Below, one piece after another: positions 17,946 to 52,339 of a stretch of DNA of 64,000 bases (positions are counted from its first letter, which is position 1; every line of letters starts with the position of its first letter). Origin of the DNA: Patiria pectinifera (Eukaryota; Echinodermata; Asteroidea; Valvatida; Asterinidae); contig CM057135.1 in the NCBI GenBank assembly GCA_029964075.1, forward strand, positions 729,001-793,000, in the 5' to 3' direction. Both the position numbers and the translations under genes were made by a program. The notes under the pieces are model-generated. The model saw nothing but the letters and a program-made list of their open reading frames with translations. It was not told the origin of the DNA and ran no database searches.

Positions 17946-18540
17946 GCACCTGGTTATAGCACCAGGGACACGCTGTCACCCTCTGTCATTCAGTAAAAAC
18001 AGGGTTGGCACGAGAAGCTAGACAGAAGGATTAGTTGGTCAGGAGATGCTATATGAGACGCTGTGCTATGCAATGGGATATTTCAGTGGGAGATCTAGGA
18101 GGTGCCCACTTCTCCAATCCACCCCAGCACGTCCTACCCCACTCCACACTACCTATTTGTACAATACCCTACACCGAATTGTCCAAGTTATTGTGAGGTC
18201 AGACACGTCACAATGTCCAACATTAATGGGGTTGCCCACTCCACACTACCTATTTGTACAATACCCTACACTGAATTGTCCAAGTTATTGTGAGGTCAGA
18301 CACTTAATGTCCAACATTAATGGGGTTGCCCACTCAAAATTGGTTACTTCTACAATACCCTACACTGAATTGTCCAAGTTATTGTGAGGTCAGACACAAG
18401 TCACAATGTCCAACATTAATGGGGTTGCCCACTCCACATTGGTTACTTCTACAATACCCTACACTGAATTGTCCAAGTTATTGTGAGGTCAGACACGTCA
18501 CAATGTCCAACATTAATGGGGTTGCCCACTCCACACTACC

Positions 18541-19391
18541 CTTATAAAAATCCACCATAATTTTACTATAATAAAACTGTAGTTTTACTGCAGTACAAAA
18601 GTAAAAGTAAAGTTTCCTGTAAAGTACATTTCCTGTAGTTTTACTACAGTAAAAGCAGAAAGTAAAGCCTATAGTGAATCTACAGTACTTTGGAAGTAAT
18701 ACTATAGTATTTCTTTTCAAAGTTTAATGCAAGGAAAACTGTAGTATTACTGCAGTGTCACTGTAGTAACACAATGCGCTCATTAGTATGCGTCCCAGAA
18801 TGCACCACTGTAAGACCAAACAAAATTCATGTTCAATTGTATGATTTTCACAGGAATTCATACTTTCTTGATGGAATTTGGTTGTTTTTGTAACGAATCC
18901 ATGACACATATTCCAATTTTAGCAAACATAAGATGGAAATTGCATTCAATCTGTTTATATATTAATATTCCATGCTAACTGTGACTTCACTGTTACCGGA
19001 AAAAGCTGCATATAAAGCTAATTCATGACTAGTAGAATGTATATGTAGTAAGATATGTACATTGTAAATACAGTAAATGTAATGTAGTAGTATAGTTACA
19101 CATAGGAGTTTGGTGCCCTAATGTCCTATGAAATGTGCGGAGACTTCAGGGAACATACCATTAGCCAGAATTGTTGTGAACTTTTACCGTGTAATGATGT
19201 GTTAATTTGAGGTAAATATATGGAAAAACAACAGTAACCGTACAGTTTTACTGCAGTAAGCACTGAAATTATGATACACTAAAAATGTAGTAAAAATGAA
19301 GTAATGATAGGGTTAAATGAATGATAAGTGTCCCACCCCCCTTTTTCTGAAAAGGGGGGGGGGGGGGGTCGTGCGTATTTTGAAAGATAAT
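18541..19391. mobile_element. Unclassified ~850-bp insertion near the left edge of the satellite
   Basis: A monomer is split between CACACTACC and CTATTTGTAC. TACC occurs at both junctions and may be a short target duplication. The insert is AT-rich with many CTGTAGTTTTACTGCAGTA-like palindromic words, and ends with a 16-G run (19357) followed by GTCGTGCGTATTTTG. No terminal inverted repeat or protein is recognised. Confidence 0.6.
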
Positions 19392-22300
19392 TACCTATTT
19401 GTACAATACCCTACACTGAATTGTCCATGTTATTGTGAGGTCAGACACTTAATGTCCAACATTAATGGGATTGCCCACTCCACATTGGTTACTTCTACAA
19501 TACCCTACACTTAATTGTCCAAGTTATTGTGAGGTCAGACAAAAGTCACAATGTCCAACATTAATGGGATTGCCCACTCCACATTGGTTACTTCTACAAT
19601 AGCCTACACTTAATTGTCCAAGTTATTGTGAGGTCAGACAAAAGTCACAATGTCCAACATTAATGGGATTGCCCACTCCACATTGGTTACTTCTACAATA
19701 CCCTACACTGAATTGTCCAAGTTATTGTGAGGTCAGACACAAGTCACAATGTCCAACATTAATGGGATTGCCCACTCCACATTGGTTACTTCTACAATAC
19801 CCTACACTTAATTGTCCAAGTTATTGTGAGGTCAGACAAAAGTCACAATGTCCAACATGAATGGGATTGCCCACTCCACATTGGTTACTTCTACAATAGC
19901 CTACACTTAATTGTCCAAGTTATTGTGAGGTCAGACAAAAGTCACAATGTCCAACATTAATGGGATTGCCCACTCCACATTGGTTACTTCTACAATACCC
20001 TACACTGAATTGTCCAAGTTATTGTGAGGTCAGACACAAGTCACAATGTCCAACATTAATGGGATTGCCCACTCCACATTGGTTACTTCTACAATAGCCT
20101 ACACTTAATTGTCCAAGTTAGTGTGAGGTCAGACACAAGTCACAATGTCCAACATTAATGGGATTGCCCACTCCACATTGGTTACTTCTACAATACCCTA
20201 CACTTAATTGTCCAAGTTATTGTGAGGTCAGACACAAGTCACAATGTCCAACATTAATGGGATTGCCCACTCCACATTGGTTACTTCTACAATACCCTAC
20301 ACTGAATTGTCCAAGTTATTGTGAGGTCAAGTCACAATGTCCAACATCAATGGGGTTGCCCACTCCACATTGGTTACTTCTACAATACCCTACACTGAAT
20401 TGTCCAAGTTAGTGTGAGGTCAGACACAAGTCACAATGTCCAACATTAATGGGATTGCCCACTCCACATTGGTTACTTCTACAATACCCTACACTGAATT
20501 GTCCAAGTTATTGTGAGGTCAGACACAAGTCACAATGTCCAACATTAATGGGGTTGCCCACTCCACATTGGTTACTTCTACAATACCCTACACTTAATTG
20601 TCCAAGTTATTGTGAGGTCAGACACAAGTCACAATGTCCAACATTAATGGGGTTGCCCACTCCACATTGGTTACTTCTACAATACCCTACACTGAATTGT
20701 CCAAGTTATTGTGAGGTCAGACACAAGTCACAATGTCCAACATTAATGGGGTTGCCCACTCCACATTGGTTACTTCTACAATACCCTACACTGAATTGTC
20801 CAAGTTATTGTGAGGTCAGACACAAGTCACAATGTCCAACATTAATGGGATTGCCCACTCCACATTGGTTACTTCTACAATACCCTATACTGAATTGTCC
20901 AAGTTATTGTGAGGTCAGACACAAGTCACAATGTCCAACATTAATGGGGTTGCCCACTCCACATTGGTTACTTCTACAATACCCTACACTGAATTGTCCA
21001 AGTTATTGTGAGGTCAGACACAAGTCACAATGTCCAACATTAATGGGATTGCCCACTCCACATTGGTTACTTCTACAATACCCTACACTGAATTGTCCAA
21101 GTTATTGTGAGGTCAGACACAAGTCACAATGTCCAACATTAATGGGATTGCCCACTCCACATTGGTTACTTCTACAATACCCTACACTGAATTGTCCAAG
21201 TTATTGTGAGGTCAGACACAAGTCACAATGTCCAACATTAATGGGATTGCCCACTCCACATTGGTTACTTCTACAATACCCTACACTGAATTGTCCAAGT
21301 TATTGTGAGGTCAGACACAAGTCACAATGTCCAACATTAATGGGGTTGCCCACTCCACATTGGTTACTTCTACAATACCCTACACTTAATTGTCCAAGTT
21401 ATTGTGAGGTCAGACACAAGTCACAATGTCCAACATTAATGGGATTGCCCACTCCACATTGGTTACTTCTACAATACCCTACACTGAATTGTCCAAGTTA
21501 TTGTGAGGTCAGACACAAGTCACAATGTCCAACATTAATGGGAATGCCCACTCCACATTGGTTACTTCTACAATACCCTACACTGAATTGTCCAAGTTAT
21601 TGTGAGGTCAGACACAAGTCACAATGTCCAACATTAATGGGGTTGCCCACTCCACATTGGTTACTTCTACAATACCCTACACTGAATTGTTCAAGTTATT
21701 GTGAGGTCAGACACAAGTCACAATGTCCAACATTAATGGGTTGCCCACTCCACATTGGTTACTTCTACAATACCCTACACTGAATTGTCCAAGTTATTGT
21801 GAGGTCAGACACAAGTCACAATGTCCAACATTAATGGGATTGCCCACTCCACATTGGTTACTTCTACAATACCCTACACTGAATTGTCCAAGTTATTGTG
21901 AGGTCAGACACAAGTCACAATGTCCAACATTAATGGGATTGCCAACTCCACATTGGTTACTTCTACAATACCCTACACTGAATTGTCCAAGTTATTGTGA
22001 GGTCAGACACAAGTCACAATGTCCAACATTAATGGGATTGCCCACTCCACATTGGTTACTTCTACAATACCCTACACTGAATTGTCCAAGTTATTGTGAG
22101 GTCAGACACAAGTCACAATGTCCAACATTAATGGGGTTGCCTACTCCACATTGGTTACTTCTACAATACCCTACACTGAATTGTCCAAGTTATTGTGAGG
22201 TAAGACACAAGTCACAATGTCCAACATTAATGGGATTGCCCACTCCACATTGGTTACTTCTACAATACCCTACACTGAATTGTCCAAGTTATTGTGAGGT

Positions 22301-23066
22301 CAGACACAAGTCACAATGTCCAACATTAATGGGATTGCCCACTCCACATTGGTTACTTCTACAATACCCTACACTGAATTGTCCCAGTCATTGTGAGGTC
22401 AGACACAAGTCACAATGTCCAACATTAATGGGATTGCCCACTCCACATTGGTTACTTCTACAATACCCTACACTTAATTGTCCAAGTTATTGTGAGGTCA
22501 GACAAAAGTCACAATGTCCAACATTAATGGGATTGCCCACTCCACATTGGTTACTTCTACAATACCCTACACTGAATTGTCCAAGTTATTGTGAGGTCAG
22601 ACACAAGTCACAATGTCCAACATTAATGGGGTTGCCCACTCCACATTGGTTACTTCTACAATACCCTACACTGAATTGTCCAAGTTATTGTGAGGTCAGA
22701 CACAAGTCACAATGTCCAACATTAATGGGATTGCCCACTCCACATTGGTTACTTCTACAATACCCTACACTGAATTGTCCAAGTTATTTTGAGGTCAGAC
22801 ACAAGTTACAATGTCCAACATTAATGGGGTTACCCACTCCACATTGGTTACTTCTACAATACCCTACACTGAATTGTCCAAGTTATTGTGAGGTCAAGTC
22901 ACAATGTCCAACATTAATGGGGTTGCCCACTCCACATTGGTTACTTCTACAATACCCTACACTGAATTGTCCAAGTTATTGTGAGGTCAGACACAAGTCA
23001 CAATGTCCAACATTAATGGGGTTGCCCACTCCACATTGGTTACTTCTACAATACCCTACACTGAAT

Positions 23067-23216
23067 AAGCCAGTTCGGTATTCCAACAGCGCATGCTCAG
23101 AAAGAGGTCATTCGGTACAAAAGTTCGAGCACGCGATGGCTCTTCCAATGAGCGCGCTCGTTCGCTAGCGCGTGCGCGTATCTGGTTTGCTCCCGAAACG
23201 AATACCGAACTGGCTT
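23067..23216. mobile_element. Satellite-embedded hairpin element, copy 1 (150 bp)
   Basis: The termini AAGCCAGTTCGGTATTC and GAATACCGAACTGGCTT are perfect inverted repeats. The interior begins CAACAGCGCATGCTCAG and has a second palindromic core (GAGCGCGCTCGTTCGCTAGC, then GCGTGCGCG). It interrupts the satellite word CTGAATTGTCC as CTGAAT-element-ATTGTCC, so removing the element and one AT restores the monomer. Alternatively the element begins TAAGCC and has no duplication. The next monomer carries diagnostic changes (AAGCTATTG, AACAATAATGGG, CCACTTTGG). Confidence 0.93.
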
Positions 23217-24596
23217 ATTGTCCAAGCTATTGTGAGGTCAGACACAAGTCACAATGTCCAACAATAATGGGATTGCCCACTCCACTTTGGTTACTTCTAC
23301 AATACCCTACACTGAATTGTCCAAGTTATTGTGAGGTCAGACACAAGTCACAATGTCCAACATTAATGGGGTTGCCCACTCCACATTGGTTACTTCTACA
23401 ATACCCTACACTGAATTGTCCAAGTTATTGTGAGGTCAGACACAAGTCACAATGTCCAACATTAATGGGATTGCCCACTCCACATTGGTTACTTCTACAA
23501 TACCCTACACTGAATTGTCCAAGTTATTGTGAGGTCAGACACAAGTCACAATGTCCAACATTAATGGGATTGCCCACTCCACATTGGTTACTTCTACAAT
23601 ACCCTACACTGAATTGTCCAAGTTATTGTGAGGTCAGACACAAGTCACAATGTCCAACATTAATGGGATTGCCCACTCCACATTGGTTACTTCTACAATA
23701 CCCTACACTGAATTGTCCAAGTTATTGTGAGGTCAGACACAAGTCACAATGTCCAACATTAATGGGATTGCCCACTCCACATTGGTTACTTCTACAATAC
23801 CCTACACTGAATTGTCCAAGTTATTGTGAGGTCAGACACAAGTCACAATGTCCAACATTAATGGGATTGCCCACTCCACATTGGTTACTTCTACAATACC
23901 CTACACTGAATTGTCCAAGTTATTGTGAGGTCAGACACGTCACAATGTCCAACATTAATGGGATTGCCCACTCCACATTGGTTACTTCTACAATACCCTA
24001 CACTGAATTGTCCCAGTCATTGTGAGGTCAGACACAAGTCACAATGTCCAACATTAATGGGATTGCCCACTCCACATTGGTTACTTCTACAATACCCTAC
24101 ACTTAATTGTCCAAGTTATTGTGAGGTCAGACAAAAGTCACAATGTCCAACATTAATGGGGTTGCCCACTCCACATTGGTTACTTCTACAATACCCTACA
24201 CTGAATTGTCCAAGTTATTGTGAGGTCAGACACAAGTCACAATGTCCAACATTAATGGGATTGCCCACTCCACATTGGTTACTTCTACAATACCCTACAC
24301 TGAATTGTCCAAGTTATTTTGAGGTCAGACACAAGTTACAATGTCCAACATTAATGGGGTTACCCACTCCACATTGGTTACTTCTACAATACCCTACACT
24401 GAATTGTCCAAGTTATTGTGAGGTCAAGTCACAATGTCCAACATTAATGGGGTTGCCCACTCCACATTGGTTACTTCTACAATACCCTACACTGAATTGT
24501 CCAAGTTATTGTGAGGTCAGACACAAGTCACAATGTCCAACATTAATGGGGTTGCCCACTCCACATTGGTTACTTCTACAATACCCTACACTGAAT

Positions 24597-24744
24597 AAGC
24601 CAGTTCGGTATTCCAACAGCGCATGCTCAGAAAGAGGTCATTCGGTACAAAAGTTCGAGCACGCGATGGCTCTTCCAATGAGCGTGCTCGTTCGCTAGCG
24701 TGCGCGTATCTGGTTTGCTCCCGAAACGAATACCGAACTGGCTT
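24597..24744. mobile_element. Satellite-embedded hairpin element, copy 2 (148 bp)
   Basis: The termini and flanking monomer variants are the same as copy 1. The central loop reads GAGCGTGCTCGTTCGCTAGC and then GTGCGCG. Confidence 0.92.
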
Positions 24745-27700
24745 ATTGTCCAAGCTATTGTGAGGTCAGACACAAGTCACAATGTCCAACAATAATGGGA
24801 TTGCCCACTCCACTTTGGTTACTTCTACAATACCCTACACTGAATTGTCCAAGTTATTGTGAGGTCAGACACAAGTCACAATGTCCAACATTAATGGGGT
24901 TGCCCACTCCACATTGGTTACTTCTACAATACCCTACACTGAATTGTCCAAGTTATTGTGAGGTCAGACACAAGTCACAATGTCCAACATTAATGGGATT
25001 GCCCACTCCACATTGGTTACTTCTACAATACCCTACACTGAATTGTCCAAGTTATTGTGAGGTCAGACACAAGTCACAATGTCCAACATTAATGGGATTG
25101 CCCACTCCACATTGGTTACTTCTACAATACCCTACACTGAATTGTCCAAGTTATTGTGAGGTCAGACACAAGTCACAATGTCCAACATTAATGGGGTTGC
25201 CCACTCCACATTGGTTACTTCTACAATACCCTACACTTAATTGTCCAAGTTATTGTGAGGTCAGACACAAGTCACAATGTCCAACATTAATGGGATTGCC
25301 CACTCCACATTGGTTACTTCTACAATACCCTACACTGAATTGTCCAAGTTATTGTGAGGTCAGACACAAGTCACAATGTCCAACATTAATGGGAATGCCC
25401 ACTCCACATTGGTTACTTCTACAATACCCTACACTGAATTGTCCAAGTTATTGTGAGGTCAGACACAAGTCACAATGTCCAACATTAATGGGGTTGCCCA
25501 CTCCACATTGGTTACTTCTACAATACCCTACACTGAATTGTTCAAGTTATTGTGAGGTCAGACACAAGTCACAATGTCCAACATTAATGGGTTGCCCACT
25601 CCACATTGGTTACTTCTACAATACCCTACACTGAATTGTCCAAGTTATTGTGAGGTCAGACACAAGTCACAATGTCCAACATTAATGGGATTGCCCACTC
25701 CACATTGGTTACTTCTACAATACCCTACACTGAATTGTCCAAGTTATTGTGAGGTCAGACACAAGTCACAATGTCCAACATTAATGGGATTGCCAACTCC
25801 ACATTGGTTACTTCTACAATACCCTACACTGAATTGTCCAAGTTATTGTGAGGTCAGACACAAGTCACAATGTCCAACATTAATGGGATTGCCCACTCCA
25901 CATTGGTTACTTCTACAATACCCTACACTGAATTGTCCAAGTTATTGTGAGGTCAGACACAAGTCACAATGTCCAACATTAATGGGGTTGCCTACTCCAC
26001 ATTGGTTACTTCTACAATACCCTACACTGAATTGTCCAAGTTATTGTGAGGTAAGACACAAGTCACAATGTCCAACATTAATGGGGTTGCCCACTCCACA
26101 TTGGTTTCTTCTACAATTCCCTACACTGAATTGTCCAAGTTATTGTGAGGTCAGACACAAGTCACAATGTCCAACATTAATGGGATTGCCCACTCCACAT
26201 TGGTTACTTCTACAATACCCTACACTGAATTGTCCAAGTTATTGTGAGGTCAGACACGTCACAATGTCCACCATTAATGGGATTGCCCACTCCACATTGG
26301 TTACTTCTACAATACCCTACACTGAATTGTCCCAGTCATTGTGAGGTCAGACACAAGTCACAATGTCCAACATTAATGGGATTGCCCACTCCACATTGGT
26401 TACTTCTACAATACCCTACACTTAATTGTCCAAGTTATTGTGAGGTCAGACAAAAGTCACAATGTCCAACATTAATGGGATTGCCCACTCCACATTGGTT
26501 ACTTCTACAATACCCTACACTGAATTGTCCAAGTTATTGTGAGGTCAGACACAAGTCACAATGTCCAACATTAATGGGGTTGCCCACTCCACATTGGTTA
26601 CTTCTACAATACCCTACACTGAATTGTCCAAGTTATTGTGAGGTCAGACACAAGTCACAATGTCCAACATTAATGGGATTGCCCACTCCACATTGGTTAC
26701 TTCTACAATACCCTACACTGAATTGTCCAAGTTATTGTGAGGTCAGACACAAGTCACAATGTCCAACATTAATGGGGTTGCCCACTCCACATTGGTTACT
26801 TCTACAATACCCTACACTGAATTGTCCAAGTTATTGTGAGGTCAGACACAAGTCACAATGTCCAACATTAATGGGGTTGCCCACTCCACATTGGTTACTT
26901 CTACAATACCCTACACTGAATTGTCCAAGTTATTGTGAGGTCAGACACAAGTCACAATGTCCAACATTAATGGGGTTGCCCACTCCACATTGGTTACTTC
27001 TACAATACCCTACACTGAATTGTCCAAGTTATTGTGAGGTCAGACACAAGTCACAATGTCCAACATTAATGGGATTGCCCACTCCACATTGGTTACTTCT
27101 ACAATACCCTACACTGAATTGTCCAAGTTATTGTGAGGTCAGACACAAGTCACAATGTCCAACATTAATGGGATTGCCCACTCCACATTGGTTACTTCTA
27201 CAATACCCTACACTGAATTGTCCAAGTTATTGTGAGGTCAGACACAAGTCACAATGTCCAACATTAATGGGATTGCCCACTCCACATTGGTTACTTCTAC
27301 AATACCCTACACTGAATTGTCCAAGTTATTGTGAGGTCAGACACAAGTCACAATGTCCAACATTAATGGGATTGCCCACTCCACATTGGTTACTTCTACA
27401 ATACCCTACACTGAATTGTCCAAGTTATTGTGAGGTCAGACACAAGTCACAATGTCCAACATTAATGGGATTGCCCACTCCACATTGGTTACTTCTACAA
27501 TACCCTACACTGAATTGTCCAAGTTATTGTGAGGTCAGACACAAGTCACAATGTCCAACATTAATGGGATTGCCCACTCCACATTGGTTACTTCTACAAT
27601 ACCCTACACTGAATTGTCCAAGTTATTGTGAGGTCAGACACAAGTCACAATGTCCAACATTAATGGGATTGCCCACTCCACATTGGTTACTTCTACAATA

Positions 27701-28106
27701 CCCTACACTGAATTGTCCAAGTTATTGTGAGGTCAGACACAAGTCACAATGTCCAACATTAATGGGATTGCCCACTCCACATTGGTTACTTCTACAATAC
27801 CCTACACTGAATTGTCCAAGTTATTGTGAGGTCAGACACAAGTCACAATGTCCAACATTAATGGGATTGCCCACTCCACATTGGTTACTTCTACAATACC
27901 CTACACTGAATTGTCCAAGTTATTGTGAGGTCAGACACAAGTCACAATGTCCAACATTAATGGGATTGCCCACTCCACATTGGTTACTTCTACAATACCC
28001 TACACTGAATTGTCCAAGTTATTGTGAGGTCAGACACAAGTCACAATGTCCAACATTAATGGGATTGCCCACTCCACATTGGTTACTTCTACAATACCCT
28101 ACACTG

Positions 28107-28140
28107 AATAAACCAGTTATTGTGCTCAGAAAGAGGTCAG
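28107..28140. mobile_element. Collapsed remnant of the hairpin element
   Basis: After CACTGAATA come AACCAGTTATTG and TGCTCAGAAAGAGGTCAG. These match the left terminus and an internal stretch of the hairpin element with everything else deleted. The TGCTCAGAAAGAGGTCA block then runs into satellite at the shared word GAGGTCA. Confidence 0.7.
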
Positions 28141-29008
28141 ACAAAAGTCACAATGTCCAACATTAATGGGTTTGCCCACTCCACATTGGTTACTTCTACA
28201 ATACCCTACACTGAATTGTCCAAGTTATTGTGAGGTCAGACACAAGTCACAATGTCCAACATTAATGGGATTGCCCACTCCACATTGGTTACTTCTACAA
28301 TACCCTACACTGAATTGTCCAAGTTATTGTGAGGTCAGACACAAGTCACAATGTCCAACATTAATGGGATTGCCCACTCCACATTGGTTACTTCTACAAT
28401 ACCCTACACTGAATTGTCCCAGTCATTGTGAGGTCAGACACAAGTCACAATGTCCAACATTAATGGGATTGCCCACTCCACATTGGTTACTTCTACAATA
28501 CCCTACACTGAATTGTCCAAGTTATTGTGAGGTCAGACACAAGTCACAATGTCCAACATTAATGGGATTGCCCACTCCACATTGGTTACTTCTACAATAC
28601 CCTACACTGAATTGTCCAAGTTATTGTGAGGTCAGACACAAGTCACAATGTCCAACATTAATGGGATTGCCCACTCCACATTGGTTACTTCTACAATACC
28701 CTACACTGAATTGTCCAAGTTATTTTGAGGTCAGACACAAGTTACAATGTCCAACATTAATGGGGTTACCCACTCCACATTGGTTACTTCTACAATACCC
28801 TACACTGAATTGTCCAAGTTATTGTGAGGTCAGACACAAGTCACAATGTCCAACATTAATGGGGTTGCCCACTCCACATTGGTTACTTCTACAATACCCT
28901 ACACTGAATTGTCCAAGTTATTGTGAGGTCAGACACAAGTCACAATGTCCAACATTAATGGGGTTGCCCACTCCACATTGGTTACTTCTACAATACCCTA
29001 CACTGAAT

Positions 29009-29158
29009 AAGCCAGTTCGGTATTCCAACAGCGCATGCTCAGAAAGAGGTCATTCGGTACAAAAGTTCGAGCACGCGATGGCTCTTCCAATGATCGTTCT
29101 CGTTCGCTAGCGCGTGCGCGTATCTGGTTTGCTCCCGAAACGAATACCGAACTGGCTT
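29009..29158. mobile_element. Satellite-embedded hairpin element, copy 3 (150 bp)
   Basis: The termini are the same. The loop reads GATCGTTCTCGTTCGCTAGC, which breaks the left half of the central palindrome. Confidence 0.92.
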
Positions 29159-30447
29159 ATTGTCCAAGCTATTGTGAGGTCAGACACAAGTCACAATGTC
29201 CAACAATAATGGGATTGCCCACTCCACTTTGGTTACTTCTACAATACCCTACACTGAATTGTCCAAGTTATTGTGAGGTCAGACACAAGTCACAATGTCC
29301 AACATTAATGGGGTTGCCCACTCCACATTGGTTACTTCTACAATACCCTACACTGAATTGTCCAAGTTATTGTGAGGTCAGACACAAGTCACAATGTCCA
29401 ACATTAATGGGATTGCCCACTCCACATTGGTTACTTCTACAATACCCTACACTGAATTGTCCAAGTTATTGTGAGGTCAGACACAAGTCACAATGTCCAA
29501 CATTAATGGGATTGCCCACTCCACATTGGTTACTTCTACAATACCCTACACTGAATTGTCCAAGTTATTGTGAGGTCAGACACAAGTCACAATGTCCAAC
29601 ATTAATGGGGTTGCCCACTCCACATTGGTTACTTCTACAATACCCTACACTGAATTGTCCAAGTTATTGTGAGGTCAGACACAAGTCACAATGTCCAACA
29701 TTAATGGGATTGCCCACTCCACATTGGTTACTTCTACAATACCCTACACTGAATTGTCCAAGTTATTGTGAGGTCAGACACAAGTCACAATGTCCAACAT
29801 TAATGGGATTGCCCACTCCACATTGGTTACTTCTACAATACCCTACACTGAATTGTCCAAGTTATTGTGAGGTCAGACACAAGTCACAATGTCCAACATT
29901 AATGGGATTGCCCACTCCACATTGGTTACTTCTACAATACCCTACACTGAATTGTCCAAGTTATTGTGAGGTCAGACACAAGTCACAATGTCCAACATTA
30001 ATGGGATTGCCCACTCCACATTGGTTACTTCTACAATACCCTACACTGAATTGTCCAAGTTATTGTGAGGTCAGACACAAGTCACAATGTCCAACATTAA
30101 TGGGATTGCCCACTCCACATTGGTTACTTCTACAATACCCTACACTGAATTGTCCAAGTTATTGTGAGGTCAGACACAAGTCACAATGTCCAACATTAAT
30201 GGGGTTGCCCACTCCACATTGGTTACTTCTACAATACCCTACACTGAATTGTCCAAGTTATTGTGAGGTCAGACACAAGTCACAATGTCCAACATTAATG
30301 GGGTTGCCCACTCCACATTGGTTACTTCTACAATACCCTACACTGAATTGTCCAAGTTATTGTGAGGTCAGACACAAGTCACAATGTCCAACATTAATGG
30401 GGTTGCCCACTCCACATTGGTTACTTCTACAATACCCTACACTGAAT

Positions 30448-30597
30448 AAGCCAGTTCGGTATTCCAACAGCGCATGCTCAGAAAGAGGTCATTCGGTACA
30501 AAAGTTCGAGCACGCGATGGCTCTTCCAATGAGGTCGTTCGCTTAGCGCTGTCCAACATTAATGGGTTTGCTCCCGAAACGAATACCGAACTGGCTT
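30448..30597. mobile_element. Satellite-embedded hairpin element, copy 4 (loop replaced by satellite sequence)
   Basis: The termini are intact, but the loop reads GAGGTCGTTCGCTTAGCGCT followed by GTCCAACATTAATGGGTTTG, which is satellite sequence, before rejoining the element at CTCCCGAAACG. Confidence 0.92.
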
Positions 30598-32177
30598 ATT
30601 GTCCAAGCTATTGTGAGGTCAGACACAAGTCACAATGTCCAACATTAATGGGATTGCCCACTCCACATTGGTTACTTCTACAATACCCTACACTGAATTG
30701 TCCAAGTTATTGTGAGGTCAGACACAAGTCACAATGTCCAACATTAATGGGATTGCCCACTCCACATTGGTTACTTCTACAATACCCTACACTGAATTGT
30801 CCAAGTTATTGTGAGGTCAGACACAAGTCACAATGTCCAACATTAATGGGATTGCCCACTCCACATTGGTTACTTCTACAATACCCTACACTGAATTGTC
30901 CAAGTTATTGTGAGGTCAGACACAAGTCACAATGTCCAACATTAATGGGATTGCCCACTCCACATTGGTTACTTCTACAATACCCTACACTGAATTGTCC
31001 AAGTTATTGTGAGGTCAGACACAAGTCACAATGTCCAACATTAATGGGATTGCCCACTCCACATTGGTTACTTCTACAATACCCTACACTGAATTGTCCA
31101 AGTTATTGTGAGGTCAGACACAAGTCACAATGTCCAACATTAATGGGATTGCCCACTCCACATTGGTTACTTCTACAATACCCTACACTGAATTGTCCAA
31201 GTTATTGTGAGGTCAGACACAAGTCACAATGTCCAACATTAATGGGATTGCCCACTCCACATTGGTTACTTCTACAATACCCTACACTGAATTGTCCAAG
31301 TTATTGTGAGGTCAGACACAAGTCACAATGTCCAACATTAATGGGATTGCCCACTCCACATTGGTTACTTCTACAATACCCTACACTGAATTGTCCAAGT
31401 TATTGTGAGGTCAGACACAAGTCACAATGTCCAACATTAATGGGATTGCCCACTCCACATTGGTTACTTCTACAATACCCTACACTGAATTGTCCAAGTT
31501 ATTGTGAGGTCAGACACAAGTCACAATGTCCAACATTAATGGGATTGCCCACTCCACATTGGTTACTTCTACAATACCCTACACTGAATTGTCCAAGTTA
31601 TTGTGAGGTCAGACACAAGTCACAATGTCCAACATTAATGGGATTGCCCACTCCACATTGGTTACTTCTACAATACCCTACACTGAATTGTCCAAGTTAT
31701 TGTGAGGTCAGACACAAGTCACAATGTCCAACATTAATGGGGTTGCCCACTCCACATTGGTTACTTCTACAATACCCTACACTGAATTGTCCAAGTTATT
31801 GTGAGGTCAGACACAAGTCACAATGTCCAACATTAATGGGATTGCCCACTCCACATTGGTTACTTCTACAATACCCTACACTGAATTGTCCAAGTTATTT
31901 TGAGGTCAGACACAAGTTACAATGTCCAACATTAATGGGGTTACCCACTCCACATTGGTTACTTCTACAATACCCTACACTGAATTGTCCAAGTTATTGT
32001 GAGGTCAAGTCACAATGTCCAACATTAATGGGGTTGCCCACTCCACATTGGTTACTTCTACAATACCCTACACTGAATTGTCCAAGTTATTGTGAGGTCA
32101 GACACAAGTCACAATGTCCAACATTAATGGGGTTGCCCACTCCACATTGGTTACTTCTACAATACCCTACACTGAAT

Positions 32178-32323
32178 AAGCCAGTTCGGTATTCCAACAG
32201 CGCATGCTCAGAAAGAGGTCATTCGGTACAAAAGTTCGAGCACGCGATGGCTCTTCCAATGAGCGCGCTCGTTGCTAGCGCGGCGCGTATCTGGTTTGCT
32301 CGAAACGAATACCGAACTGGCTT
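32178..32323. mobile_element. Satellite-embedded hairpin element, copy 5
   Basis: The termini are the same. The loop reads GAGCGCGCTCGTTGCTAGCG, then CGGCGCG, and CCC is missing before GAAACGAATACC. Confidence 0.92.
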
Positions 32324-34594
32324 ATTGTCCAAGCTATTGTGAGGTCAGACACAAGTCACAATGTCCAACAATAATGGGATTGCCCACTCCACTTTGGTTA
32401 CTTCTACAATACCCTACACTGAATTGTCCAAGTTATTGTGAGGTCAGACACAAGTCACAATGTCCAACATTAATGGGGTTGCCCACTCCACATTGGTTAC
32501 TTCTACAATACCCTACACTGAATTGTCCAAGTTATTGTGAGGTCAGACACAAGTCACAATGTCCAACATTAATGGGATTGCCCACTCCACATTGGTTACT
32601 TCTACAATACCCTACACTGAATTGTCCAAGTTATTGTGAGGTCAGACACAAGTCACAATGTCCAACATTAATGGGATTGCCCACTCCACATTGGTTACTT
32701 CTACAATACCCTACACTGAATTGTCCAAGTTATTGTGAGGTCAGACACAAGTCACAATGTCCAACATTAATGGGATTGCCCACTCCACATTGGTTACTTC
32801 TACAATACCCTACACTGAATTGTCCAAGTTATTGTGAGGTCAGACACAAGTCACAATGTCCAACATTAATGGGATTGCCCACTCCACATTGGTTACTTCT
32901 ACAATACCCTACACTGAATTGTCCAAGTTATTGTGAGGTCAGACACAAGTCACAATGTCCAACATTAATGGGGTTGCCCACTCCACATTGGTTACTTCTA
33001 CAATACCCTACACTGAATTGTCCAAGTTATTGTGAGGTCAGACACAAGTCACAATGTCCAACATTAATGGGGTTGCCCACTCCACATTGGTTACTTCTAC
33101 AATACCCTACACTGAATTGTCCAGTTATTGTGAGGTCAGACACAAGTCACAATGTCCAACATTAATGGGATTGCCAACTCCACATTGGTTACTTCTACAA
33201 TACCCTACACTGAATTGTCCAAGTTATTGTGAGGTCAGACACAAGTCACAATGTCCAACATTAATGGGATTGCCCACTCCACATTGGTTACTTCTACAAT
33301 ACCCTACACTGAATTGTCCAAGTTATTGTGAGGTCAGACACAAGTCACAATGTCCAACATTAATGGGATTGCCCACTCCACATTGGTTACTTCTACAATA
33401 CCCTACACTGAATTGTCCAAGTTATTGTGAGGTCAGACACAAGTCACAATGTCCAACATTAATGGGATTGCCCACTCCACATTGGTTACTTCTACAATAC
33501 CCTACACTGAATTGTCCAAGTTATTGTGAGGTCAGACACAAGTCACAATGTCCAACATTAATGGGATTGCCCACTCCACATTGGTTACTTCTACAATACC
33601 CTACACTGAATTGTCCAAGTTATTGTGAGGTCAGACACAAGTCACAATGTCCAACATTAATGGGATTGCCCACTCCACATTGGTTACTTCTACAATACCC
33701 TACACTGAATTGTCCAAGTTATTGTGAGGTCAGACACAAGTCACAATGTCCAACATTAATGGGATTGCCCACTCCACATTGGTTACTTCTACAATACCCT
33801 ACACTGAATTGTCCAAGTTATTGTGAGGTCAGACACAAGTCACAATGTCCAACATTAATGGGATTGCCCACTCCACATTGGTTACTTCTACAATACCCTA
33901 CACTGAATTGTCCAAGTTATTGTGAGGTCAGACACAAGTCACAATGTCCAACATTAATGGGATTGCCCACTCCACATTGGTTACTTCTACAATACCCTAC
34001 ACTGAATTGTCCAAGTTATTGTGAGGTCAGACACAAGTCACAATGTCCAACATTAATGGGATTGCCCACTCCACATTGGTTACTTCTACAATACCCTACA
34101 CTGAATTGTCCAAGTTATTGTGAGGTCAGACACAAGTCACAATGTCCAACATTAATGGGGTTGCCCACTCCACATTGGTTACTTCTACAATACCCTACAC
34201 TGAATTGTCCAAGTTATTGTGAGGTCAGACACAAGTCACAATGTCCAACATTAATGGGATTGCCCACTCCACATTGGTTACTTCTACAATACCCTACACT
34301 GAATTGTCCAAGTTATTGTGAGGTCAGACACAAGTCACAATGTCCAACATTAATGGGTTGCCCACTCCACATTGGTTACTTCTACAATACCCTACACTGA
34401 ATTGTCCAAGTTATTGTGAGGTCAAGTCACAATGTCCAACATTAATGGGGTTGCCCACTCCACATTGGTTACTTCTACAATACCCTACACTGAATTGTCC
34501 AAGTTATTGTGAGGTCAGACACAAGTCACAATGTCCAACATTAATGGGGTTGCCCACTCCACATTGGTTACTTCTACAATACCCTACACTGAAT

Positions 34595-34737
34595 AAGCCA
34601 GTTCGGTATTCCAACAGCGCATGCTCAGAAAGAGGTCATTCGGTACAAAAGTTCGAGCACGCGATGGCTCTTCCAATGAGCGCGTTCGCTAGCGCGTCGC
34701 GTATCTGGTTTGCTCGAAACGAATACCGAACTGGCTT
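34595..34737. mobile_element. Satellite-embedded hairpin element, copy 6
   Basis: The termini are the same. The loop is shortened to GAGCGCGTTCGCTAGCGCGT and then CGCG. Confidence 0.92.
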
Positions 34738-35530
34738 ATTGTCCAAGCTATTGTGAGGTCAGACACAAGTCACAATGTCCAACAATAATGGGATTGCCCA
34801 CTCCACTTTGGTTACTTCTACAATACCCTACACTGAATTGTCCAAGTTATTGTGAGGTCAGACACAAGTTACAATGTCCAACATTAATGGGGTTGCCCAC
34901 TCCACATTGGTTACTTCTACAATACCCTACACTGAATTGTCCAAGTTATTGTGAGGTCAGACACAAGTCACAATGTCCAACATTAATGGGATTGCCCACT
35001 CCACATTGGTTACTTCTACAATACCCTACACTGAATTGTCCAAGTTATTGTGAGGTCAGACACAAGTCACAATGTCCAACATTAATGGGATTGCCCACTC
35101 CACATTGGTTACTTCTACAATACCCTACACTGAATTGTCCAAGTTATTGTGAGGTCAGACACAAGTCACAATGTCCAACATTAATGGGATTGCCCACTCC
35201 ACATTGGTTACTTCTACAATACCCTACACTGAATTGTCCAAGTTATTGTGAGGTCAGACACAAGTCACAATGTCCAACATTAATGGAATGCCCACTCCAT
35301 ATTGGTTACTTCTACAATACCCTACACTGAATTGTCCAAGTTATTGTGAGGTCAGACACAAGTCACAATGTCCAACATTAATGGGGTTGCCCACTCCACA
35401 TTGGTTACTTCTACAATACCCTACACTGAATTGTCCAAGTTATTGTGAGGTCAGACACAAGTCACAATGTCCAACATTAATGGGGTTGCCCACTCCACAT
35501 TGGTTACTTCTACAATACCCTACACTGAAT

Positions 35531-35670
35531 AAGCCAGTTCGGTATTCCAACAGCGCATGCTCAGAAAGAGGTCATTCGGTACAAAAGTTCGAGCACGCGA
35601 TGGCTCTTCCAATGAGCGCTGTTCGCTGCGCGTATCTGGTTTGCGGCCGAAACGAATACCGAACTGGCTT
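35531..35670. mobile_element. Satellite-embedded hairpin element, copy 7
   Basis: The termini are the same. The loop is shortened to GAGCGCTGTTCGCTGCGCG, with GCGGCC in place of GCTCCC. Confidence 0.92.
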
Positions 35671-36357
35671 ATTGTCCAAGCTATTGTGAGGTCAGACACA
35701 AGTCACAATGTCCAACAATAATGGGATTGCCCACTCCACTTTGGTTACTTCTACAATACCCTACACTGAATTGTCCAAGTTATTGTGAGGTCAGACACAA
35801 GTCACAATGTCCAACATTAATGGGATTGCCCACTCCACATTGGTTACTTCTACAATACCCTACACTGAATTGTCCAAGTTATTGTGAGGTCAGACACAAG
35901 TCACAATGTCCAACATTAATGGGATTGCCCACTCCACATTGGTTACTTCTACAATACCCTACACTGAATTGTCCAAGTTATTGTGAGGTCAGACACAAGT
36001 CACAATGTCCAACATTAATGGATTGCCCACTCCACATTGGTTACTTCTACAATACCCTACACTGAATTGTCCAAGTTATTGTGAGGTCAGACACAAGTCA
36101 CAATGTCCAACATTAATGGAATGCCCACTCCATATTGGTTACTTCTACAATACCCTACACTGAATTGTCCAAGTTATTGTGAGGTCAAGTCACAATGTCC
36201 AACATTAATGGGGTTGCCCACTCCACATTGGTTACTTCTACAATACCCTACACTGAATTGTCCAAGTTATTGTGAGGTCAGACACAAGTCACAATGTCCA
36301 ACATTAATGGGGTTGCCCACTCCACATTGGTTACTTCTACAATACCCTACACTGAAT

Positions 36358-36507
36358 AAGCCAGTTTGGTATTCCAACAGCGCATGCTCAGAAAGAGGTC
36401 ATTCGGTACAAAAGTTCGAGCACGCGATGGCTCTTCCAATGAGCGCGCTCGTTCGCTAGCGCGTGCGCGTATCTGGTTTGCTCCCGAAACGAATACCGAA
36501 CTGGCTT
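36358..36507. mobile_element. Satellite-embedded hairpin element, copy 8
   Basis: The loop matches copy 1. The left terminus has one change (AGTTTGG for AGTTCGG), shared with copy 12. Confidence 0.92.
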
Positions 36508-37294
36508 ATTGTCCAAGCTATTGTGAGGTCAGACACAAGTCACAATGTCCAACAATAATGGGATTGCCCACTCCACTTTGGTTACTTCTACAATACCCTA
36601 CACTGAATTGTCCAAGTTATTGTGAGGTCAGACACAAGTTACAATGTCCAACAATAATGGGGTTGCCCACTCCACATTGGTTACTTCTACAATACCCTAC
36701 ACTGAATTGTCCAAGTTATTGTGAGGTCAGACACAAGTCACAATGTCCAACATTAATGGGATTGCCCACTCCACATTGGTTACTTCTACAATACCCTACA
36801 CTGAATTGTCCAAGTTATTGTGAGGTCAGACACAAGTCACAATGTCCAACATTAATGGGATTGCCCACTCCACATTGGTTACTTCTACAATACCCTACAC
36901 TGAATTGTCCAAGTTATTGTGAGGTCAGACACAAGTCACAATGTCCAACATTAATGGGATTGCCCACTCCACATTGGTTACTTCTACAATACCCTACACT
37001 GAATTGTCCAAGTTATTGTGAGGTCAGACACAAGTCACAATGTCCAACATTAATGGAATGCCCACTCCATATTGGTTACTTCTACAATACCCTACACTGA
37101 ATTGTCCAAGTTATTGTGAGGTCAAGTCACAATGTCCAACATTAATGGGGTTGCCCACTCCACATTGGTTACTTCTACAATACCCTACACTGAATTGTCC
37201 AAGTTATTGTGAGGTCAGACACAAGTCACAATGTCCAACATTAATGGGGTTGCCCACTCCACATTGGTTACTTCTACAATACCCTACACTGAAT

Positions 37295-37441
37295 AAGCCA
37301 GTTCGGTATTCCAACAGCGCATGCTCAGAAAGAGGTCATTCGGTACAAAAGTTCGAGCACGCGATGGCTCTTCCAATGAGCGCTCGTTCGCTTAGCGTGC
37401 GCGTATCTGGTTTGCTCCCGAAACGAATACCGAACTGGCTT
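37295..37441. mobile_element. Satellite-embedded hairpin element, copy 9
   Basis: The termini are the same. The loop reads GAGCGCTCGTTCGCTTAGCG and then TGCGCG. Confidence 0.92.
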
Positions 37442-38232
37442 ATTGTCCAAGCTATTGTGAGGTCAGACACAAGTCACAATGTCCAACAATAATGGGATTG
37501 CCCACTCCACTTTGGTTACTTCTACAATACCCTACACTGAATTGTCCAAGTTATTGTGAGGTCAGACACAAGTTACAATGTCCAACAATAATGGGGTTGC
37601 CCACTCCACATTGGTTACTTCTACAATACCCTACACTGAATTGTCCAAGTTATTGTGAGGTCAGACACAAGTCACAATGTCCAACATTAATGGGATTGCC
37701 CACTCCACATTGGTTACTTCTACAATACCCTACACTGAATTGTCCAAGTTATTGTGAGGTCAGACACAAGTCACAATGTCCAACATTAATGGGATTGCCC
37801 ACTCCACATTGGTTACTTCTACAATACCCTACACTGAATTGTCCAAGTTATTGTGAGGTCAGACACAAGTCACAATGTCCAACATTAATGGGATTGCCCA
37901 CTCCACATTGGTTACTTCTACAATACCCTACACTGAATTGTCCCAGTCATTGTGAGGTCAGACACAAGTCACAATGTCCAACATTAATGGGATTGCCCAC
38001 TCCACATTGGTTACTTCTACAATACCCTACACTTAATTGTCCAAGTTATTGTGAGGTCAGACAAAAGTCACAATGTCCAACATTAATGGGATTGCCCACT
38101 CCACATTGGTTACTTCTACAATACCCTACACTGAATTGTCCAAGTTATTGTGAGGTCAGACACAAGTGACAATGTCCAACATTAATGGGATTGCCCACTC
38201 CACATTGGTTACTTCTACAATACCCTACACTG

Positions 38233-38379
38233 TATGGACCCATGTACTAATGACGTCATGCTTTGTTTACACGTGCGCTTTCCTATGGAGCAAGAGGGGG
38301 CCCACGGTCCACTGAGCACCATAGGAAAGCACACGTGTAAACAAAGTGTAACATCATTAGTACATGTACATTGGTCCAT
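38233..38379. mobile_element. Second hairpin element family inside the satellite (147 bp)
   Basis: The left arm (TATGGACCCATGTACTAATG, then ACGTCATGCTTTGTTTACAC) is the inverted match of the right arm (GTGTAAACAAAGTGTAACAT, then CATTAGTACATGTACATTGG and TCCAT) over about 55 bp with a few changes. The loop contains GCAAGAGGGGGCCCACGGTC. It interrupts the monomer at CACTG(A)A / TTGTCC, the same junction used by the AAGCCAGTTCGG family. Only one copy is present, so it postdates the spread of the local block. Confidence 0.88.
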
Positions 38380-38866
38380 TGTCCAAGTTATTGTGAGGTC
38401 AAACACAAGTTACAATGTCCAACATTAATGGGGTTGCCCACTCCACATTGGTTACTTCTACAATACCCTACACTGAATTGTCCAAGTTATTGTGAGGTCA
38501 GACACAAGTCACAATGTCCAACATTAATGGGTTGCCCACTCCACATTGGTTACTTCTACAATACGCTATACTGAATTGTTCAAGTTATTGTGAGGTCAGA
38601 CAGAAGTCACAATGTCCAACATTAATGGGTTGCCCACTCCACATTGGTTACTTCTACAATACCCTACACTGAATTGTCCAAGTTATTGTGAGGTCAAGTC
38701 ACAATGTCCAACATTAATGGGGTTGCCCACTCCACATTGGTTACTTCTACAATACCCTACACTGAATTGTCCAAGTTATTGTGAGGTCAGACACAAGTCA
38801 CAATGTCCAACATTAATGGGGTTGCCCACTCCACATTGGTTACTTCTACAATACCCTACACTGAAT

Positions 38867-39016
38867 AAGCCAGTTCGGTATTCCAACAGCGCATGCTCAG
38901 AAAGAGGTCATTCGGTACAAAAGTTCGAGCACGCGATGGCTCTTCCAATGAGCGCGCTCGTTCGCTAGCGCGTGCGCGTATCTGGTTTGCTCCCGAAACG
39001 AATACCGAACTGGCTT
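38867..39016. mobile_element. Satellite-embedded hairpin element, copy 10
   Basis: The termini and loop match copy 1. Confidence 0.92.
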
Positions 39017-39803
39017 ATTGTCCAAGCTATTGTGAGGTCAGACACAAGTCACAATGTCCAACAATAATGGGATTGCCCACTCCACTTTGGTTACTTCTAC
39101 AATACCCTACACTGAATTGTCCAAGTTATTGTGAGGTCAGACACAAGTTACAATGTCCAACAATAATGGGGTTGCCCACTCCACATTGGTTACTTCTACA
39201 ATACCCTACACTGAATTGTCCAAGTTATTGTGAGGTCAGACACAAGTCACAATGTCCAACATTAATGGGATTGCCCACTCCACATTGGTTACTTCTACAA
39301 TACCCTACACTGAATTGTCCAAGTTATTGTGAGGTCAGACACAAGTCACAATGTCCAACATTAATGGGATTGCCCACTCCACATTGGTTACTTCTACAAT
39401 ACCCTACACTGAATTGTCCAAGTTATTGTGAGGTCAGACACAAGTCACAATGTCCAACATTAATGGGATTGCCCACTCCACATTGGTTACTTCTACAATA
39501 CCCTACACTGAATTGTCCAAGTTATTGTGAGGTCAGACACAAGTCACAATGTCCAACATTAATGGAATGCCCACTCCATATTGGTTACTTCTACAATACC
39601 CTACACTGAATTGTCCAAGTTATTGTGAGGTCAAGTCACAATGTCCAACATTAATGGGGTTGCCCACTCCACATTGGTTACTTCTACAATACCCTACACT
39701 GAATTGTCCAAGTTATTGTGAGGTCAGACACAAGTCACAATGTCCAACATTAATGGGGTTGCCCACTCCACATTGGTTACTTCTACAATACCCTACACTG
39801 AAT

Positions 39804-39953
39804 AAGCCAGTTCGGTATTCCAACAGCGCATGCTCAGAAAGAGGTCATTCGGTACAAAAGTTCGAGCACGCGATGGCTCTTCCAATGAGCGCGCTCGTTC
39901 GCTAGCGCGTGCGCGTATCTGGTTTGCTCCCGAAACGAATACCGAACTGGCTT
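39804..39953. mobile_element. Satellite-embedded hairpin element, copy 11
   Basis: The termini and loop match copies 1 and 10. It lies 937 bp after copy 10, the same spacing as between copies 8 and 9. Confidence 0.92.
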
Positions 39954-40548
39954 ATTGTCCAAGCTATTGTGAGGTCAGACACAAGTCACAATGTCCAACA
40001 ATAATGGGATTGCCCACTCCACTTTGGTTACTTCTACAATACCCTACACTGAATTGTCCAAGTTATTGTGAGGTCAGACACAAGTCACAATGTCCAACAT
40101 TAATGGGATTGCCCACTCCACATTGGTTACTTCTACAATACCCTACACTGAATTGTCCAAGTTATTGTGAGGTCAGACACAAGTCACAATGTCCAACATT
40201 AATGGGATTGCCCACTCCACATTGGTTACTTCTACAATACCCTACACTGAATTGTCCAAGTTATTGTGAGGTCAGACACAAGTCACAATGTCCAACATTA
40301 ATGGATTGCCCACTCCACATTGGTTACTTCTACAATACCCTACACTGAATTGTCCAAGTTATTGTGAGGTCAGACACAAGTCACAATGTCCAACATTAAT
40401 GGGGTTGCCCACTCCACATTGGTTACTTCTACAATACCCTACACTGAATTGTCCAAGTTATTGTGAGGTCAGACACAAGTCACAATGTCCAACATTAATG
40501 GGGTTGCCCACTCCACATTGGTTACTTCTACAATACCCTACACTGAAT

Positions 40549-40693
40549 AAGCCAGTTTGGTATTCCAACAGCGCATGCTCAGAAAGAGGTCATTCGGTAC
40601 AAAAGTTCGAGCACGCGATGGCTCTTCCAATGGCGCGCTTAATCGCTAGCGCGTCCACATCTGGTTTGCTCGAAACGAATACCGAACTGGCTT
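40549..40693. mobile_element. Satellite-embedded hairpin element, copy 12
   Basis: The left terminus has AGTTTGG as in copy 8. The loop is rearranged (GGCGCGCTTAATCGCTAGCG, then CGTCCACATCTGG) and CCC is missing before GAAACG. The following monomer lacks the usual AAGCTATTG marker. Confidence 0.92.
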
Positions 40694-41382
40694 ATTGTCC
40701 AAGTTATTGTGAGGTCAGACACAAGTCACAATGTCCAACAATAATGGGATTGCCCACTCCACATTGGTTACTTCTACAATACCCTACACTGAATTGTCCA
40801 AGTTATTGTGAGGTCAGACACAAGTCACAATGTCCAACATTAATGGGATTGCCCACTCCACATTGGTTACTTCTACAATACCCTACACTGAATTGTCCAA
40901 GTTATTGTGAGGTCAGACACAAGTCACAATGTCCAACATTAATGGGATTGCCCACTCCACATTGGTTACTTCTACAATACCCTACACTGAATTGTCCAAG
41001 TTATTGTGAGGTCAGACACAAGTCACAATGTCCAACATTAATGGGATTGCCCACTCCACATTGGTTACTTCTACAATACCCTACACTGAATTGTCCAAGT
41101 TATTGTGAGGTCAGACACAAGTCACAATGTCCAACATTAATGGGATTGCCCACTCCACATTGGTTACTTCTACAATACCCTACACTGAATTGTCCAAGTT
41201 ATTGTGAGGTCAAGTCACAATGTCCAACATTAATGGGGTTGCCCACTCCACATTGGTTACTTCTACAATACCCTACACTGAATTGTCCAAGTTATTGTGA
41301 GGTCAGACACAAGTCACAATGTCCAACATTAATGGGGTTGCCCACTCCACATTGGTTACTTCTACAATACCCTACACTGAAT

Positions 41383-41521
41383 AAGCCAGTTCGGTATTCC
41401 AACAGCGAATGCTCAGAAAGAGGTCATTCGTACAAAAGTTCGAGCACGATGGCTCTTCCAATGGCGCGCTCGTTAGCTGCGCGTATCTGGTTTGCTCCCG
41501 AAACGAATACCGAACTGGCTT
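41383..41521. mobile_element. Satellite-embedded hairpin element, copy 13
   Basis: This is the most diverged copy: CAGCGAATGCTC for CAGCGCATGCTC, single-base losses in the stem, and a short loop GGCGCGCTCGTTAGCTGCGC. Confidence 0.92.
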
Positions 41522-42576
41522 ATTGTCCAAGCTATTGTGAGGTCAGACACAAGTCACAATGTCCAACATTAATGGGATTGCCCACTCCACATTGGTTACT
41601 TCTACAATACCCTACACTGAATTGTCCAAGTTATTGTGAGGTCAGACACAAGTCACAATGTCCAACATTAATGGGATTGCCCACTCCACATTGGTTACTT
41701 CTACAATACCCTACACTGAATTGTCCAAGTTATTGTGAGGTCAGACACAAGTCACAATGTCCAACATTAATGGGATTGCCCACTCCACATTGGTTACTTC
41801 TACAATACCCTACACTGAATTGTCCAAGTTATTGTGAGGTCAGACACAAGTCACAATGTCCAACATTAATGGGATTGCCCACTCCACATTGGTTACTTCT
41901 ACAATACCCTACACTGAATTGTCCAAGTTATTGTGAGGTCAGACACAAGTCACAATGTCCAACATTAATGGGATTGCCCACTCCACATTGGTTACTTCTA
42001 CAATACCCTACACTGAATTGTCCAAGTTATTGTGAGGTCAGACACAAGTCACAATGTCCAACATTAATGGGTTGCCCACTCCACATTGGTTACTTCTACA
42101 ATACCCTACACTGAATTGTCCAAGTTATTGTGAGGTCAGACACAATGTCCAACATTAATGGGGTTGCCCACTCCACATTGGTTACTTCTACAATACCCTA
42201 CACTGAATTGTCCAAGTTATTGTGAGGTCAGACACAAGTCACAATGTCCAACATTAATGGGTTGCCCACTCCACATTGGTTACTTCTACAATACCCTACA
42301 CTGAATTGTCCAAGTTATTGTGAGGTCAGACACAAGTCACAATGTCCAACATTAATGGGTTGCCCACTCCACATTGCATGGTTACTAATAACTACATTTC
42401 CATACACTGTATTGGCCAAGTTATTGTGAGGTCAGAAACACGTCAGAATGGGTTTCCCACTCCACATTGGTTACTTCCACATAATTGGGAGGCGAGCTGA
42501 GACACGTAAAGTAATATTTTGAGAACAGTTATGTGCAGATTGAAAAATACCCAACAAAATGATCATAAATAATTAC

Positions 42577-43255: not shown

Positions 43256-43412
43256 ATAAGCCTATTCGCAATCTCAACTGCGCATAATCGTGATGGAAGA
43301 TAAACAAATAGATTTATGCACAAGTAATGGGGGGCGGGGAACTATTTATCTTCCGTAACCTTGGCGATCTGGCTAGTGCACCAGACTATTTTGAGATTGC
43401 GAATAGGCTTAT
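43256..43412. mobile_element. 157-bp MITE-like element
   Basis: The left end ATAAGCCTATTCGCAATCTC, then AA, is the perfect inverted match of the right end TTGAGATTGCGAATAGGCTTAT. TA dinucleotides abut the ends, but a duplication cannot be fixed because the termini are themselves AT-rich. The interior is non-coding. Confidence 0.8.
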
Positions 43413-43926: not shown

Positions 43927-44043
43927 CTCACTTTGTCTTGTGCGGTAGTCATTCACAAAGAAGGTGATCGATATAAAAATCACCAACAGAGACTGGAATG
44001 TGAAAAATATTGACGATTTCGTGAGCTGATCTGTCGGTTCCAT
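43927..44043 (-). CDS. Candidate first exon of a small membrane protein
   Basis: An ATG at 44043 opens a 39-codon exon reading MEPTDQLTKSSIFFTFQSLL, then VIFISITFFVNDYRTRQSE, followed at once by a consensus donor (GAG/GTATGT) in phase 0. It has a polar N-terminus and one predicted membrane helix (about residues 12-31). The SIFFTFQSLLVI stretch loosely resembles the start of the Kish/TMEM167 family (IFNFQSLLTVI), but the similarity is too short to name the gene. A second copy lies in inverted orientation 68 bp away. This copy keeps the frame and donor, so it is the likelier functional one. Confidence 0.5.
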
Positions 44044-44127
44044 TGCAAACGTTTACAAATTCAAATCCAAAGGTCAAATTCTTCCGTTTTAATATGTTAA
44101 TCCAGCATTACCGCATTACCGTTTGCG

Positions 44128-44226
44128 ATGGAACCGACAGATCAGCTCACGAAATCGCCAATATTTTTCACATTCCAGTCTCTGTTGGTGATTTTGATAT
44201 TGATCACCTTCTTCGTGAATGACTAA
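44128..44226 (+). pseudogene. Inverted second copy of the first exon, truncated
   Basis: It reads MEPTDQLTKSPIFFTFQSLL, then VILILITFFVND, and stops at TAA because 13 bp that encode the YRTR region in the other copy are missing. The donor-like GAGGTATG is retained. Relative to 43927-44043 the substitutions are few and mostly conservative (SS to SP, FIS to LIL). Confidence 0.7.
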
Positions 44227-44854: not shown

Positions 44855-45106
44855 GGGCCCAATTTCATGGCGCTGCTTACCGCAGAATTCGGCGCTTGCT
44901 TTCTCCATTCTGTGCTTACCGGGCTAGCACAAAAATTCTGCGCTAACCTTTTTAGCATAGAATCGCTAGCAACGGGATGAACGCATGCGCACGCATGCAC
45001 AAAAGTACAAATTCTCTGCTAAACCCGTGAAATAGGTTTTCGGTAAGCACAGAATTTTCTGCTTCCGTAAGCGCCGAATTTTAAGCAGCGCCATGAAATT
45101 GGGCCC
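44855..45106. mobile_element. 252-bp MITE with GGGCCCAATTTCATGG termini
   Basis: The left end GGGCCCAATTTCATGGCGCT, continuing GCTTA, is the inverted match of TAAGCAGCGCCATGAAATTG followed by GGCCC. Further matching blocks (GAATTCGGCGCTT against AAGCGCCGAATT; TTCTGTGCTTACCG against CGGTAAGCACAGAA) extend the arms to about 80 bp. The interior includes GAACGCATGCGCACGCATGC. It is non-coding. Confidence 0.88.
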
Positions 45107-52338: not shown

Positions 52339-52339
52339 G

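Follow-up and report, generated by a model that had tools for sequence, protein, structure and literature searches.

Variable cores of an inverted-repeat element in a starfish satellite array: a probable consensus or assembly artefact

Do the near-identical hairpins of a satellite array in the starfish Patiria pectinifera record local hypermutation, or did their differences arise while the reads were being corrected and assembled? The question is raised by a 64,000-nucleotide stretch of contig CM057135.1 (assembly GCA_029964075.1, positions 729,001 to 793,000; hereafter the window, numbered from its first letter), in which a 99-bp satellite array carries 13 copies of one 141–152 bp inverted-repeat element, all at one phase. 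A sequence-only reading had seen in these copies a hypervariable, palindromic loop between conserved arms, and had attributed it either to cleavage or slippage at the hairpin tip or to sequencing errors where secondary structure is strong. Both the array and its element are genuine and of a known kind, and the element itself is ordinary. As for the variation in its core, we favour, with modest confidence and from the assembled letters, the explanation that it is mainly a consensus or assembly artefact, the hypervariable loop probably being spurious.

One element, multiplied with its array

All 13 copies end in terminal inverted matches of 19–20 bp (AAGCCAGTTCGGTATTC), which in copies 36355 and 40546 contain a single mismatch (each copy is named by the position one less than its start in Table 1, so that copy 1 is copy 23064 and copy 4 is copy 30445). 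If both ATs and one leading A are counted the element measures 144–155 bases, and there are 11 distinct sequences among the 13. The insertions have the context CACTGA-AT-element-AT-TGTCC, and plain satellite units (CACTGAATTGTCC) contain the matching empty site CACTGA-AT-TGTCC. Because AT flanks both ends and the empty site is present in plain units, the element looks like a miniature inverted-repeat transposable element (MITE) with AT duplication. ISL2EU transposons duplicate the target 5'-AT-3', according to an excerpt of PMC4482050, and the element resembles the MITEs of this type, as that excerpt describes them, in being short, in its terminal inverted repeats, in the 5'-AT-3' duplication and in the empty site of plain units. 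As to the PHIS-type transposase of an autonomous relative in that group, five reading frames of the window had endonuclease, reverse transcriptase and PHD domains or no match in Pfam.

On its left, the element has exactly the same satellite unit in every one of the 13 copies; on its right, 10 of the 13 have a unit with the same three rare markers (T11C, T48A and A70T). These shared neighbours indicate a single MITE-like insertion that is now present 13 times, having been multiplied with its array surroundings. The element inserted once at an AT of one satellite unit, duplicating that AT, after which element and neighbouring units were multiplied together within the array, presumably by unequal exchange. 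Satellite higher-order repeats that carry a transposon insertion are known, and the array is like them in that an insertion has been multiplied with flanking marked units, but unlike them in the irregular gaps between its copies (about 0.75 to 4.4 kb) and in the partial loss of its unit markers.

Location and nature of the variation

When the 13 copies were aligned in 155 columns with copy 23064 as reference, 40 columns proved variable, and 32 of these were crowded into a span of 34 columns, a concentration reached in 0 of 20000 random permutations of the columns. Mean edit distance per base over the 78 pairs was 0.218 in the core, as against 0.029 in the right arm, 0.016 in the left arm (a value raised by cutting copy 41380 at a fixed length), 0.008 in the right satellite unit and 0 in the left one. 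The arms are therefore nearly constant, as the sequence-only reading had it, apart from a few changes: three in the left interior of copy 41380, C13T in two copies and changes in TCCC (columns 128–130) in four.

All five core strings quoted in that reading are present in the window, the first of them four times (at 23150, 36441, 38950 and 39887) and the others once. It is true of the core that most copies differ, since nine of the 13 have altered cores, differing in 2 to 12 core columns and no two alike; the remaining four (23064, 36355, 38864 and 39801) share one canonical core. The supposed palindrome reduces to two short ones (GAGCGCGCTC and CGCTAGCG) inside a variable part that is not palindromic as a whole. 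Nor is that part central: its columns, 88–120, lie to the right of the midpoint of the element at column 78.

Over the whole element we counted 34 events, copy 30445 being left out for its ambiguous alignment: 21 deletions, 11 substitutions and 2 insertions. Seven of the deletions removed one base, ten removed two and four removed three to seven. Some single changes recur, namely an inserted T at 102, the loss of GC at 105–106, the loss of 89–90 and C92T (two copies each), and the loss of CC at 129–130, which is found in three copies, each with its own type of right-hand flank.

The DNA fold predicted for the copy-1 sequence is strong (-40.2 kcal/mol, z -6.66), but it has many rivals of almost equal energy: the minimum structure has a frequency of only 0.008, although the centroid keeps the apical stem. 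In this predicted fold the apical stem has its 3' strand (106–112) within the variable columns, together with most of the sequence before it inside the stem, while the 5' strand, GCACGCG (columns 66–72), is unchanged in 12 of 13 copies. The changes are thus one-sided and not centred on the tip, where a tip hotspot would put them. Several altered copies have a different predicted inner fold, and for eight of the nine the predicted fold is weaker than that of the canonical copy, a count made without a random control.

Artefact or biology

The case for a consensus or assembly artefact begins with satellite letters blended into element sequence. Unit 28108 reads as if pieced together from element and satellite: three switches between the two parents cut its edits from 15 to 3, which none of 500 shuffled elements equalled, and when it is aligned with both flanks by MAFFT its element and satellite letters follow the order of both parents, its fifth base matching neither. 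In the core of copy 30445, 15 letters match the satellite exactly, as in none of 2000 shuffles, and they directly precede GGGTTTGC / GGGATTGC, a stretch nearly common to element and satellite. Beyond these blends, the number of core differences rises across the 13 copies with the number of lost neighbour markers (Spearman 0.78, permutation p 0.002, which is exploratory because the markers were tallied by hand and post hoc). The tally covered T11C, T48A and A70T in the right unit and d23-28 two units to the left, a marker being lost where the majority letter stands instead. All three copies with marker loss in the right-hand neighbour (units 30598, 40694 and 41522) are among the four with the most altered cores, and none of the four canonical copies shows marker loss. 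On a larger scale, the second half of block 39512–41621, set against its apparent homologue at 35233–37541, has marker losses, two missing units and no satellite variant of its own. That the altered cores are all distinct also fits an artefact, as does the fact that canonical cores are found whichever of the three types of second right-hand neighbour is present. Reads with the element and reads of plain satellite may have been mixed, or the core poorly supported, during correction or assembly, with the outcome that deletions and satellite letters would be left in the core while arms and common satellite positions would be drawn to the majority. Such mixing or over-correction of repeats could account for the blended unit, the satellite letters, the marker loss and the unmarred canonical copies, and polishing over-correction of long-read assemblies, described in the excerpted text of PMC12016036, would be expected to replace rare repeat markers by the majority letter.

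Several observations weigh against an artefact. Four altered copies (24594, 32175, 34592 and 37292) show no loss of neighbour markers, and the two-by-two contrast between canonical copies (0 of 4 with marker loss) and altered ones (5 of 9) is only suggestive. Marker loss could also stem from gene conversion or from greater copy age; older copies could have changed in core and flanks alike. The satellite-like letters of copy 40546 (longest exact match 7) are at the level of chance (188 of 2000 shuffles), in contrast to those of unit 28108 and copy 30445. For unit 28108, three switches and three edits could be obtained by repair or template switching, the pairing of its letters changes with other MAFFT contexts, and a seven-switch reading was dropped, since many-switch solutions fit shuffled elements nearly as well. 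The recurrent single changes would be compatible with inheritance, slippage or systematic error alike. Since all but one of the 13 copies retain GC-rich GAGCACGCGATGGCT (67% GC) unaltered, and the arms are nearly all intact, GC content alone does not explain where the variation lies. Lastly, nanopore reads of much larger inverted duplications are described, in an excerpt of PMC7229812, as being of low quality from the junction onward for about one arm length; unlike in those whole-arm errors, the outer right arm is intact here.

The biological reading with most in its favour, although we hold it only tentatively, is real local hypermutation, in which stalled replication or nicking at the hairpin would produce small deletions and, from time to time, a template switch into neighbouring satellite, so that private cores would have appeared after the expansion. 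The strength of the predicted fold agrees with this, as do the divergence of the core, which far exceeds that of arms and flanks, and the nine distinct cores, which on such a reading place the changes late. Small deletions of 1–7 bases make up 21 of the 34 events, and slippage in CG-rich repeats could give these, the ten 2-base losses included. Copy 30445 fits a two-switch event into satellite, which lowers its edits from 14 to 7. A known mechanism lengthens the pairing of imperfect arms; copies 24594 (through C92T) and 35528 each acquire a stretch complementary to the left interior. In these two gains, and in the clustering of changes in an imperfect inverted repeat, the locus is like quasi-palindrome template-switch mutation as presented in the excerpted text of PMC3820800. 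It is unlike it in that most altered copies fold more weakly and in that the gain tested, that of copy 35528, equals chance: the within-hairpin switch that would take this copy from 12 edits to 5 was rejected, as random deletions of the same size did as well in 108 of 400 simulations. Smaller putative gains appear in copies 34592, 41380 and others. Excerpts of other work describe inverted repeats as mutation-prone in other systems. One-sided change tells against hypermutation at the tip, however, and the link between altered cores and lost markers requires an extra assumption of it. If the core were a true hotspot, which we regard as a minority possibility, it would be limited to the apical stem's 3' strand with the adjoining sequence, would far outpace the satellite and would sometimes take satellite letters by polymerase switching.

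Two further explanations involve other elements. Gene conversion with dispersed family members carrying other cores is improbable: a probable diverged relative at 43258–43410, outside the array, makes a dispersed family plausible, but the donors would have to match nearly exactly in both arms and differ in the core alone, and the 15 satellite letters of copy 30445 would be left unexplained. This relative gave a weak BLAST match (E 0.32, within the window) and a local score of 27, when the highest among 1000 single-base shuffles was 25. Hardly credible at all are separate insertions of already distinct elements at the same site in different units. A different element (38234–38379) did enter the same AT, so that the site is usable, but independent events would not share the invariant left unit and the three right-hand markers, and these neighbours tell against such an origin for most of the copies. 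Of the two sources that the sequence-only reading had offered, cleavage or slippage at the tip is thus weakened, by the one-sided variation, the weaker folds and the chance result for copy 35528, and also by satellite letters in the core of copy 30445, which it did not lead one to expect, though a polymerase switch could place them there. Sequencing error is the better supported, in the wider form of consensus or assembly error.

The array, its surroundings and their significance

Table 1. Positions in the window of the element copies, the satellite array and related features.
Feature	Position	Strand	Remarks
99-bp satellite array	18178..42470	.	Approximate ends; Tandem Repeats Finder and unit parsing; 215 scored units, 93 equal to the consensus
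Copy 1 (23064)	23065..23218	+	Canonical core; AT duplications at 23065-23066 and 23217-23218
Variable core of canonical copy 1	23148..23183	+	
Copy 2 (24594)	24595..24746	+	Core with one 2-base deletion and C92T
Unit 28108, element/satellite blend	28108..28214	+	107 bp; jumping alignment with shuffle control, multiple alignment
Copy 3	29007..29160	+	Core with 3 substitutions; neighbour marker d23-28 missing
Copy 4 (30445)	30446..30599	+	Core with 15 satellite letters, TGTCCAACATTAATG; neighbour markers missing
Copy 5 (32175)	32176..32325	+	Core with two 1-base deletions; CC at 129-130 lost
Copy 6 (34592)	34593..34739	+	Core deletions of 4 and 1; CC at 129-130 lost
Copy 7 (35528)	35529..35672	+	Core 10 shorter; neighbour marker d23-28 missing
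Copy 8 (36355)	36356..36509	+	Canonical core; C13T in terminal repeat
Copy 9 (37292)	37293..37443	+	Core deletions of 2 and 2, one T inserted
Second, different inverted-repeat element (GGACC..GGTCC)	38234..38379	+	At the same AT of the satellite unit; 51-nt arms, 88% complementary
Copy 10 (38864)	38865..39018	+	Canonical core
Copy 11 (39801)	39802..39955	+	Canonical core
Copy 12 (40546)	40547..40695	+	Core heavily altered; C13T; neighbour markers missing
Copy 13 (41380)	41381..41523	+	Core heavily altered; 3 left-interior changes; neighbour markers missing
Probable diverged relative of the element, outside the array	43258..43410	+	AT flanks; terminal repeat AAGCCTATTCGCAATCTCA; termini align

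Within the array, 21290–22278 and 25141–26129 each comprise ten satellite units in which the series of rare markers is almost the same, which is evidence of a putative duplication at an offset of 3851 bp. The element at 38234–38379 adjoins several satellite units with private variants (38135, 38378, 38477 and 38575), and about 0.9 kb of non-satellite DNA lies inside the left edge of the array (18516–19402), with a long G run close to its right end. Beyond the array there are a long inverted repeat at 43946–44225 (106-nt arms, 95% complementary, 68 nt apart), an inverted-repeat element at 44855–45106 with ends GGGCCCAATTTCAT, and a 19-bp minisatellite (GAGCGGGTTATTCGTGGGG; 57 copies) at 51260–52345, in which all three forward frames are open. 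The window has the look of animal DNA, with a GC content of 43%, and contains many TAGGCCTA motifs, which are reminiscent of echinoderm or hemichordate genomes. Four of the five reading frames of the window searched against Pfam have endonuclease, reverse transcriptase and PHD domains, as in retrotransposons lacking long terminal repeats (non-LTR); the 1194-aa open frame at 59426–63010 has all three and is a non-LTR retrotransposon frame, possibly complete.

Searches for the element elsewhere returned little. Two patterns for element and satellite had no match in viral contigs, and a phage comparison of window positions 23000–23400 gave none; sequences from the genome to which the window belongs may be missing from what such searches cover. 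Four bacterial stretches among genome contigs that match one 19-base end pattern were dropped because about two were reckoned by chance, over 257 billion bases and both strands. Rfam at gathering thresholds returned nothing, a tRNA search of the window with the bacterial setting found none, and four sequence strings looked for in papers were not found there.

If the variation is an artefact, hairpins in satellite arrays may carry invented sequence despite flanks that look perfect, and blended units and reverted markers would be usable signs of such error. If it is real, thirteen copies with near-identical flanks would provide a built-in control for measuring hairpin mutation, and, were the core a true hotspot, the array would serve as a naturally occurring reporter of the mutations that hairpins induce in the genome of an animal.

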